Under the pieces are notes generated by a model. That model did no database searches. It saw nothing but the letters and a program-made list of their open reading frames with translations, and was not told the origin of the DNA. A program made the translations under genes and the position numbers. A DNA stretch of 32,669 nt from Candidatus Saccharibacteria bacterium (lineage in GTDB: Bacteria > Patescibacteriota > Saccharimonadia > CAILAD01 > BJGX01). The stretch is from NCBI GenBank assembly GCA_016191105.1, contig JACPPH010000006.1:1-32669 (forward strand). The letters are read 5' to 3'. Of the stretch, positions 1,273-24,174 are shown piece after piece. Every line of letters starts with the position of its first letter. The stretch's first letter is position 1.

Positions 1273-1592
1273 CGAGTAGTGCTTTCTCCGGCATTCGAAA
1301 ATCAGAAAACAAAGTTGGCTGAACGCTTCTGTTCGAGCACGAGTGCCGTCTCTGCCGCAGAACAGAAAGTGAAGACAGCTTTGTGATTATAGATTTGAGC
1401 CTGTGACGGAAGCTTTGGCAACTTTCCGCTACAAAGAAGTGCCGGCTGCTGTTGCTGTGCGGTCTGCCTAGCTTCGGCAGATTCTCGCAATACGAGCCCA
1501 TTTTGGTATTGTGCTTGCCGATCTTGCAACGGCTGGTTGTAATAGTTTTAGTTAAAACCAAAAGCCCCTCGGTAAAGTAAGAGGGGCTTTTG
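1273..1592 (+). ncRNA. Structured non-coding element, copy A
   Basis: This gap between genes holds copy A of an element also found at 10531-10880 (minus strand) and 21570-22030 (plus). Block 1332-1368 (TTCGAGCACGAGTGCCG...GCAGAACAGAAA) is nearly identical to 21639-21676. Block 1446-1533 matches the reverse complement of 10611-10693, including TTGCCGATCTTGCAACGGC against TTGCTGATCTTGCAACGGC. The hairpin TCTGCC/GGCAGA (1463-1468 with 1476-1481) is replaced in the other copy by TTCGCT/AGCGAA at the same place, which is compensatory change. An 8-bp stem TTCTGTTC/GAACAGAA closes the first block. The short ORFs across it are not conserved between copies. I cannot name an RNA family. Confidence 0.6.
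1560..1592 (+). terminator. Intrinsic terminator ending copy A
   Basis: Perfect 11-bp hairpin AAAAGCCCCTC/GAGGGGCTTTT with a T-rich 3' arm. It ends the element copy and any transcript from the foldase gene. It lies 27 bases after the conserved GATCTTGCAACGGC block. Confidence 0.85.
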
Positions 1593-2942: not shown

Positions 2943-3018
2943 GGGCCCGTGGTGTAGTGGTTAACATGCCTCCCTGTCACGGAGGAGATCGCCGGTTCGA
3001 TCCCGGTCGGGCCCGCCA
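2943..3018 (+). tRNA. tRNA-Asp (GUC)
   Basis: Acceptor GGGCCCG (2943-2949) pairs with CGGGCCC (3008-3014). The anticodon loop CTGTCAC gives anticodon GTC. The T-arm reads GGTTCGATCCC. The CCA end is encoded (3016-3018). Its last 18 bases recur at 3171-3188. Confidence 0.95.
3001..3018 (+). repeat. tRNA-Asp 3' end, first copy of an att-like direct repeat
   Basis: TCCCGGTCGGGCCCGCCA is repeated exactly at 3171-3188. A direct repeat of a tRNA 3' end is the usual trace of site-specific integration at a tRNA gene (established knowledge). No integrase gene is in the window. Confidence 0.6.
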
Positions 3019-3170: not shown

Positions 3171-3188
3171 TCCCGGTCGGGCCCGCCA
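3171..3188 (+). repeat. Second copy of the tRNA-Asp 3' end (att-like)
   Basis: Exact 18-base copy of 3001-3018, without the rest of a tRNA. The 152 bases between the copies hold the tRNA terminator and no convincing gene. Just downstream begins the foreign-looking gene unit 3239-3672. Confidence 0.6.
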
Positions 3189-4253: not shown

Positions 4254-4356
4254 CGTTGTTTTTAGGTTCCAGCCTTTGTACCCAAGCACCAGTTTGTTGC
4301 TTCGACTTTCATCTAAAAACTCTATCGTCGATCAAAAACAGTAGCGTTTTTGATCG
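4254..4356 (+). repeat. Structured tRNA spacer, copy 1
   Basis: This spacer after tRNA-Gly is clearly homologous to 4457-4557 after tRNA-Thr. Both can fold as an outer stem TTTTTAG/CTAAAAA, an inner stem (AAGCA/TGCTT here, AAACA/TGTTT in copy 2, a compensatory change), then the palindrome CGATCAAAAAC/GTTTTTGATCG. The palindrome (4329-4356) is likely the terminator or processing hairpin for the tRNA. Confidence 0.65.
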
Positions 4357-4456: not shown

Positions 4457-4557
4457 CGTCGTTTTTAGATTTCGGCTTTCGCACCCAAACAAAGTTTGTT
4501 TACTTCAGCCTATGTCTAAAAATTCCTCTCGATCAAAAACAGTAGCGTTTTTGATCG
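4457..4557 (+). repeat. Structured tRNA spacer, copy 2
   Basis: Copy of the spacer at 4254-4356, starting at the first base after CCA. Outer stem TTTTTAGA/TCTAAAAA, GGCT/AGCC, AAACA/TGTTT, then the palindrome CGATCAAAAAC...GTTTTTGATCG at 4530-4557, identical to that of copy 1. Confidence 0.65.
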
Positions 4558-4630
4558 TAAAAATCCTAGTTTTTCCCTCTCGATTTGGCAAATAGAATTC
4601 CGCTCTCTTACCAAATCGTTTAGAGAACTA

Positions 4631-4657
4631 CATCAAAAAAAGTATCGTTTTTGATCG
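4631..4657 (+). repeat. Third, degenerate copy of the GATCAAAAAC palindrome
   Basis: CATCAAAAAAAGTATCGTTTTTGATCG, a mutated copy of the palindromes at 4329-4356 and 4530-4557, without the upstream part of the spacer. No tRNA precedes it. It may be the remains of a lost tRNA-spacer unit. Confidence 0.55.
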
Positions 4658-10530: not shown

Positions 10531-10880
10531 AATAAAAAAGCCAGTGTATAACTCTAAAAAACAGTGGATTAACTTTTGGTGGGTAATTAATAGCGATTTG
10601 TAACCATTAGGCCGTTGCAAGATCAGCAAATGAGGCCATTAAACAACGCTCTTGTTGCGAGAATTCGCTGGCTAGCGAACCGCACAGCAACAGGAAGTTG
10701 CGACTGGCTAAGTACTGCTAGATCGCAGCACAGGCCAAACGGTTTTGCTATCTTTTACCAAGACAAAAGATAGTCACCCGAAAGGGTGAAACTTTTTAGG
10801 CTTTGGCTACAAAGAAGTCCCGCGCGGACAGCGCAACAAATTTAGCCTAGATCCCGGATAAAGTTCGGGATGATGCCGAC
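10531..10880 (-). ncRNA. Structured non-coding element, copy C
   Basis: The 420 bases between nrdR and the polymerase gene hold this copy, read on the minus strand. The hairpin CTATCTTTT/AAAAGATAG (10748-10773) matches CTACCTTTTG/CAAAAGGTAG of copy D (21797-21822) with paired changes. The adjoining CACCCTTTCGGGTG matches CACCCTTCGGGCG there. The block 10611-10693 matches copy A, with hairpin TTCGCT/AGCGAA (10664-10679) replacing TCTGCC/GGCAGA. The 5' part differs from A and D, lacking the TTCGAGCACGARTGCCG block. It ends, on the minus strand, at a hairpin CCACTGT/ACACTGG (one mismatch) followed by six T (10567-10533). Confidence 0.6.
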
Positions 10881-21569: not shown

Positions 21570-22030
21570 TTTTACTATTTCAAGCGACTTTTCTGGCCGT
21601 CGAAAGATCAGAAAGCAAAAGCTGGTCGAGTGTTTATGTTCGAGCACGAATGCCGTCTCTGTCGCAGAACAGAAAACGAGACTAGCTTTTGTGTTTCTAG
21701 ATCTAAGTATAGGCCAGCAATTTTGCTTCTTTGATTGTGCAAAGAAGTGCCGGCCGCATAGGCCATAGATTTATAAGGGTTCCACCCTTCGGGCGACTAC
21801 CTTTTGTCTTGGCAAAAGGTAGAAAAACCGCTCGGCATGGACGCAATCAAGCAGTCTTCAGACAGACTTAACTCCGGGTTCTGCGGAACTCGTCTCGATG
21901 ATACCATCCGGACTCAAACAGTCCTCGAGCTCCAAGCATCAAATCTATCTTCACTTGCTGATTGCTTTAATGACGGAGAGAAAGCTCATATTCGGAATCA
22001 AAAAAAGAGGCCTTTTAAGCCTCTTTTTTT
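21570..22030 (+). ncRNA. Structured non-coding element, copy D
   Basis: The 450 bases between the MBL-like gene and rpmB. 21590-21755 aligns along its length with copy A (1282-1445), including the near-identical block 21639-21676. Its outer stem CAAAAGCTGGTC/GACTAGCTTTTG (around 21617-21691) has a diverged counterpart in A that still pairs. 21740s: CTTCTTTG/CAAAGAAG hairpin. 21783-21830 matches copy C (CACCC-GGG then CTACCTTTTG/CAAAAGGTAG). 21950-21980 keeps TTGCTGAT and ACGG of the 3' block. It ends at the terminator 22000-22030. TATAAA at 21552 could be a -10 box. Short ORFs across it are not conserved. Confidence 0.6.
22000..22030. terminator. Bidirectional terminator between copy D and rpmB
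   Basis: AAAAAAGAGGC/GCCTCTTTTTT, perfect 11 bp, with T-runs on both strands. It overlaps the last codons of rpmB. Confidence 0.9.
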
Positions 22031-23988: not shown

Positions 23989-24125
23989 TAGGTGAGCTCT
24001 ATGGCGCTCGGTGTGCCACGCAACTTTTTCTGGTTATATTTTCGCAATGGGAATTCAAGATTGTCTTTGGCAGAATGCCTTGGTACTGAGAATACCCACC
24101 TAATTTTTTGCGGGAAGAGTTGCGT
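23989..24125 (+). ncRNA. Possible small RNA or leader with two alternative folds
   Basis: Downstream of the promoter at 23958-23986. TAGGTG (23989-23994) can pair with CACCTA (24097-24102), followed by six T, like a small RNA with a terminator. ACGCAACT (24018-24025) is perfectly complementary to AGTTGCGT (24118-24125), beyond that T-run, so a second fold exists. No ORF covers it. The expected start near 23993 would remove part of the first stem, which lowers my confidence. Confidence 0.35.
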
Positions 24126-24174
24126 AAAATGGCTACCGGCGTTTGTGGAGTGAGATCATATACTGTTATTCGAT

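Follow-up and report, generated by a model that had tools for sequence, protein, structure and literature searches.

A repeated intergenic hairpin sequence as one copy of a dispersed, probably mobile family of palindromic DNA

Introduction

The window, by which we mean the whole stretch of 32,669 nucleotides analyzed here, comprises positions 1-32669 of contig C6 in a nearly complete genome of 928 kb in 10 contigs. Close to its start lies an intergenic, hairpin-rich sequence that is repeated further along, and an earlier note on this DNA took it for the first of three copies of a structured element, either a paralogous RNA or an RNA-like mobile element. This raises the question of whether the sequence is kept as an RNA or spreads as DNA. 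Our analysis indicates that it is likely one copy of a dispersed, non-autonomous family of palindromic mobile DNA, which in its working resembles REP/BIME repeats and the Rickettsia palindromic elements (RPE). Jumping DNA is more likely than a new RNA gene, since the core of the element was found across phyla and sometimes in frame inside genes.

Modules of the three copies in the window

The stretches at 1285-1536, 10608-10836 and 21589-21978 (copies 1, 2, and 3) were confirmed to be related sequence, present on both strands. Copies 1 and 3 shared a 72-nt match of 79% identity (E = 2e-18 in the whole-genome search), and the match of copy 2 to copy 1 was confined to one module, termed C (E = 1.4e-4 in that search). 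The copies had been described as collinear. They are not simply so, as copy 1 consists of an A module and a truncated C module, copy 2 of a C module and remnants, and copy 3 of an A and an A' module. All module boundaries given here are accurate to a few bases.

Copy 1 begins with an A-type T module (1285..1409, + strand), a long imperfect hairpin running from TCTCCGGCATTCGAAAATCAG to GAGCCTGTGACGG with the reduced core CGAG...CCGCAG, which was assigned from a full-length match to the A seed and from the nine-member alignment A2. It is followed by a sub-terminal b hairpin (GAAGCTTTGGCAACTTTCCGCTACAAAGAAGTGCCGGC; 1409..1449, + strand), found as a blast match to the b seed, and by a truncated C-type T module (1449..1536, - strand) matched both by blast and by a covariance model. 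This C module retains its loop hairpin TCTGCC/GGCAGA and its outer end GATCTTGCAACGG, while the inner half-arm and the b hairpin are gone. In copy 2 the C-type T module is complete (10608..10736, + strand; alignment A1), carries the loop hairpin TTCGCT/AGCGAA and scored 134 bits with model R1, which included copy 2 when it was built. A b' hairpin (CTATCTTTTACCAAGACAAAAGATAG; 10737..10773, + strand; blast match to the b2 seed) and a remnant of the opposite half, made up of a b hairpin arm and the GCGCGGACAGCGC linker (10801..10836, + strand), come next; the second T module is no longer present. Copy 3 contains an A-type T module (21589..21717, + strand), a b hairpin (21722..21757, + strand), a b' hairpin (CTACCTTTTGTCTTGGCAAAAGGTAG; 21797..21828, - strand) and an A'-type T module (21833..21978, - strand). 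The latter holds the core that is shared across phyla, an exact pattern match to GAGGACTGTTTGAG, a hairpin and GAGTTCCGCA at 21882..21926 (- strand).

The stems TCTGCC/GGCAGA (1.4 kb copy) and TTCGCT/AGCGAA (10.6 kb copy), which the earlier note had compared, both form the loop hairpin of a C module and are equivalent. The GATCTTGCAACGG block, said to be common to all copies, was found in copies 1 and 2 only and is the outer end of the C module. A terminator had been placed at the end of every copy. Terminator-like hairpins do follow copies 1 (1562-1592) and 3 (21997-22029), whereas copy 2 has none; both are located outside the module boundaries as features separate from the element.

Some other features of the window were recorded. 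Positions 1-150 match the end of contig C2, and their minus strand gives the first codons of a transposase-like open reading frame (MYTLLNLPQ...), so that the window probably starts at an assembly break at an insertion sequence. At 3001-3017 lies the 3' terminus of a tRNA gene (TCCCGGTCGGGCCCGCC), and this sequence recurs 170 bp downstream at 3171-3187, like an attachment-site duplication. Around tRNA genes a 29-nt palindrome (TCGATCAAAAACAGTAGCGTTTTTGATCG) is found at 4328-4356, 4529-4557, and 4629-4657, two of these being identical and one 86%. A 6S RNA candidate at 23993-24155 (E = 3.9e-4) scored 36.7 bits, the Rfam gathering score being 46.4.

Distribution and architecture in the genome

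The element proved to be far more numerous than the three copies first described. Three genome searches gave approximately 26 loci with element modules across the 928 kb, several of them close to contig ends, and about 37 T modules of about 125-170 nt each were extracted. These fall into the types A (CCGACATTCGAAAATCAGAAAG...CTAGATTTGAGCCCATGTCGG), A' (CCGGCATTAAAGCAATCAGCAAG...TTGTGTCCATGCCGG), and C (GGCCGTTGC.GATCAGCAAG...TAGATCGCAGCACAGGCC). Each T module folds into a single long, imperfect hairpin. From its closing stem and a box close to the base, this hairpin continues through a stem of variable sequence and an internal loop (CGAG / CCGCA) to a loop hairpin that is likewise variable. 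A short hairpin (b or b') is located behind each T module. The unit of the family is a long imperfect hairpin, the T module, together with a short sub-terminal hairpin, and it also occurs as single, truncated, and mosaic units. The intact element has the order T-b-linker-b'-T', two units facing each other in an inverted composite of about 300-430 bp.

Such T-b...b'-T' pairs were present at about half of the loci, an opposed-pair and mosaic arrangement as in REP/BIME, and halves, truncations and mosaics were common. Mosaic exchange is shown by the loop variant CGAGAACTTGCTTG..ATAGCAGCGCAGAAC, which was found within three different outer arms (G000:C1:9610, C2:214032, C8:201976). The A and C types of this genome contain a reduced core only, and we infer their kinship with the core-bearing A' form from the shared architecture, the shared loop residues and the mosaics. 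At the 24 loci where both neighboring genes were called, by simple open reading frame calls, 10 copies were located between convergent, 11 between co-directional and three between divergent genes, the 10.6 kb copy being among the divergent cases. Many copies begin 0-50 nt from a stop codon.

A core shared with other genomes

When 61 genomes were searched at the DNA level, the element was found in its own genome only. The covariance-model search identified two diverged but architecturally complete elements (L092 and L094) in a second genus of the same family, both of them flanked by convergent genes. Comparison of these two gave a core of GAGGACTGTYTGAG, a hairpin and GAGTTCCGCA. When one genome per species was scanned for this core, at least 120 stretches were found in other genomes, and among the matches listed were Lachnospiraceae, many groups of Patescibacteria and one Deltaproteobacterium. 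In a sample of the phylum Patescibacteria it was present in eight of 380 genomes, with none for the reversed-pattern control. Viral contigs, phages, plasmids, and E. coli, each searched with one or two queries, gave no matches.

In the hairpins examined, the core is central in a long palindrome whose arms vary between copies yet stay paired. Three loci of the Deltaproteobacterium (G063; L115, L172, L178) share their inner arms, while their outer arms are unrelated but paired over 10-17 bp, as if the copies had been inserted into different palindromes or terminators. In genome G359 all eight cores are on one strand of contig C3, between 309 and 1217 kb. Within the Lachnospiraceae, four orthologous locus pairs had both flanks matching between two genomes, and the hairpin was kept at the orthologous sites L119/L149 and L108/L112. 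Placed side by side, the L119 and L149 hairpins showed compensated changes in their arms. With the flanks matching, this indicates that some copies are old and stable.

The earlier suggestion of a dispersed, structured and apparently unnamed family with compensatory changes, reaching other phyla, is thereby supported. The link to other phyla runs through the GAGGAC...GAGTTCCGCA core, however, and the CTTTTGTCTTGG hairpin mentioned in the earlier note is not its basis. The core sequence was absent from the open-licence papers searched, and topic searches of the same open-licence literature gave no description of the palindromic family. Its novelty is accordingly provisional.

Insertion within genes and signs of recent copying

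Although no open reading frame is common to the window copies, as had been stated, relatives elsewhere are translated in frame inside genes. In G050, another genome of the Patescibacteria, the recJ gene contains 264 nt in frame, comprising a palindrome and some flank, which are missing from recJ of the same-genus G045 and G047 and also of G055. The recJ gene of G397, also of the Patescibacteria, contains two in-frame palindromes, and none are present in the same-genus G196. Since same-genus orthologues lack them, these whole palindromes, with both arms and the core, are insertions. The demonstration concerns the core-bearing type in G050 and G397 rather than the window loci. That the arms arose from the target by inverted duplication is not supported in recJ, as the gene of the relatives has neither arm. 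An ABC-F gene of G050 also contains a palindrome, judged from a gap in the profile match, and another is enclosed by an open reading frame of G337 (L256).

Two copies of 307 bp in the window genome agree at 301/307 positions (98%) and have flanks that are unrelated. Another pair was 99% identical over 147 nt. Both pairs point to recent copying. Inspected by eye, the one recent pair examined showed no target-site duplication.

Pairing and strand preference

The pairing was indeed kept while the stems changed. Among the 14 genome copies of the C module, 12 of 34 pairs had changes on both sides. Compensated cells numbered 35, compared to 13.6 for shuffled alignments and 1-8 with a slid partner. 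The slide control leans toward the structure, which was derived from the same alignment, while the excess over the shuffles is large. The compensatory changes are real.

They speak for a family of structured non-coding RNAs in which each copy would be transcribed and function as RNA, a reading raised in the earlier note. Folding energies agree with this, with z-scores of -5.4 for the 10.6 kb copy, -5.3 for the 21.6 kb copy and -2.8 for the 1.3 kb copy, and the GAGGAC strand is the better-folding one both in the A' modules and over 114 hairpins with the core, almost all of which come from other genomes; these 114 are related sequences and not independent tests. We used the number of G-U pairs per strand to distinguish RNA from DNA, a G-U pair on one strand being an A-C mismatch on the other. 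The G-U/A-C counts of the window genome were 32/35 for A, 61/32 for A', and 50/74 for C, i.e., a bias absent in A and opposite in C. The Lachnospiraceae copies favored the GAGGAC strand (78/36), but the other Patescibacteria and the Deltaproteobacterium together did not (83/73). As no strand was consistently preferred, selection on pairing at the RNA level is not established, and a strand preference in some lineages could also come from single-stranded DNA. For the Lachnospiraceae, a useful RNA would also fit the retention at orthologous sites, the compensated arms and the G-U bias.

For the family as a whole the RNA reading is unlikely. No Rfam family was matched by the loci tested (Rfam 15, relaxed thresholds), the halves are inverted, the copies occur in any gene orientation and whole palindromes are found within coding sequence, in frame in recJ. 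Of the two readings in the earlier note, the RNA-like mobile element was half right, and the paralogous RNA ending at a terminator is not supported.

Other explanations

The copies could instead be large intrinsic terminators or 3'-end stabilizers of mRNA, kept in place between genes and having a putative protein-binding core in common. The proximity of many copies to stop codons, the 10 of 24 loci between convergent genes, the terminator-like stems with T runs that end some Lachnospiraceae hairpins and the orthologous retention are consistent with such a role. We nevertheless consider it improbable, given that copies occur between divergent genes, as at 10.6 kb, and within the recJ and ABC-F genes, and given same-genus recJ orthologues that lack the copy and terminators in the window that are features of their own. 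Finally, it is very unlikely that the copies are ordinary MITEs of an insertion sequence with a DDE transposase: a dispersed inverted composite of this size with recent near-identical copies would suit them, and an insertion sequence seems present in the genome from the transposase-like fragment at the window start, but the termini differ between A/A' and C and between lineages, conservation being confined to the internal core. Moreover, recJ shows palindromes inserted singly, and target-site duplication was not seen by eye.

Search for a mobilizing enzyme

The window genome has two Y1 (RAYT-like) genes. These genes adjoin perfect palindromes of their own with arms of 17-25 bp, unlike the T modules (L089:1252-1287 and 1983-2036; L090:1264-1302). 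Y1_Tnp was present in 11 of 20 element-positive genomes and in four of 16 element-negative genomes chosen for comparison (p = 0.096, Fisher test), and genomes with eight and seven copies were without it. No core was found in 91 kb of sequence around Y1 genes. RAYT was therefore rejected as the mobilizer, considering the different palindromes of the Y1 genes, the nine of 20 positive genomes without Y1 and the absence of the core near Y1. Reverse transcriptase, found in seven of 20 positive and two of 16 negative genomes, was rejected as well, as it is missing from 13 of the 20. Neither Y1 nor reverse transcriptase is required for the element. A gene of approximately 490 amino acids that recurred beside the core turned out to be an artefact of the 1.5-kb locus ends.

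Discussion

If the element is mobile palindromic DNA, the unit would move as DNA via a hairpin or cruciform, and its conserved internal core would be recognized by an enzyme supplied in trans. The complementarity of the arms would then be kept at the DNA level, through a need for folding or through arm-to-arm correction. Copies would persist chiefly at intergenic positions, which tolerate insertion, and any hairpins arising in read-through mRNA would be incidental.

A further proposal, which we make tentatively, is that these palindromes may form a new class of mobile element that is shared horizontally by Patescibacteria, Lachnospiraceae, and Deltaproteobacteria. In this class only an internal core of about 23 nt would be fixed and the arms would be free to change but fully paired, and its members would be moved by a putative hairpin-recognizing enzyme and be able to add peptides to host proteins. 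As one short core occurs across phyla, including the culturable Pseudobutyrivibrio (Lachnospiraceae), the question of how palindromes spread can be tested via a core-binding protein. The family also serves as a warning that RNA is not a necessary conclusion when bacterial hairpins show compensatory change, and that some of the inserted loops in proteins of Patescibacteria derive from mobile palindromes.

Comparison with known palindromic elements

Like the MITEs ERIC, RUP, and BOX, the element is non-autonomous, intergenic and hairpin-forming, with a length of a few hundred bp. Unlike these, it has no terminal inverted repeat in common across lineages, no target duplication was seen, and no parent insertion sequence was found in a transposase search that covered Y1. 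The attC site of integrons is also a variable hairpin; no pair of ends of the form RYYYAAC...GTTRRRY stood out in consensus A1.

REPs occur as opposed palindrome pairs and mosaics, mostly between convergent or co-directional genes and sometimes inside DNA-repair genes (PMC3733652). The present element resembles REP/BIME in its opposed pairs and mosaics, in its preference for convergent and co-directional gaps, in its insertions into DNA-repair genes and in the presence of Y1/RAYT-like genes in the genome. However, GTAG- and CGTC-tagged REPs are 20-40 bp long with a terminal unpaired tag, whereas T modules are 125-170 nt, and longer elsewhere. GTAG was found in the outer 15 nt of four and one of the 37 modules and CGTC in one and one, with about 1.7 expected by chance. 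The element is not a GTAG or CGTC REP, and unlike the REPs that accompany a RAYT, it does not flank the RAYT-like genes, which have different, short palindromes beside them.

Long near-perfect inverted repeats inside genes, with pairing kept as the sequence changes, have been described in the mitochondria of Nematomorpha (PMC6649704). The likeness lies in inverted repeats within genes whose pairing outlasts sequence change. In Nematomorpha, conserved residues of the host are encoded by the arms themselves and an inserted core is not part of the description, whereas the palindrome found here is an insertion.

To our knowledge, the spread of palindromic elements such as RPE has been an open question since 2000, and we know of no mobilizer for RPE. 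Three inserted peptides had no match up to E = 10 to any model of NCBIfam, which we take to include an RPE1 model, the kinship with RPE being compared via protein models only. RPEs are dispersed palindromes of a bacterium with a small genome; they occupy intergenic sites and also interrupt unrelated genes in frame (PMC10969869, PMC3733652). The present family agrees with RPE in being inserted both between genes and in frame within them, the latter in recJ of G050 and G397 and not seen in the window genome. It differs from RPE in the conserved internal core of its long hairpins, which is common to several phyla.
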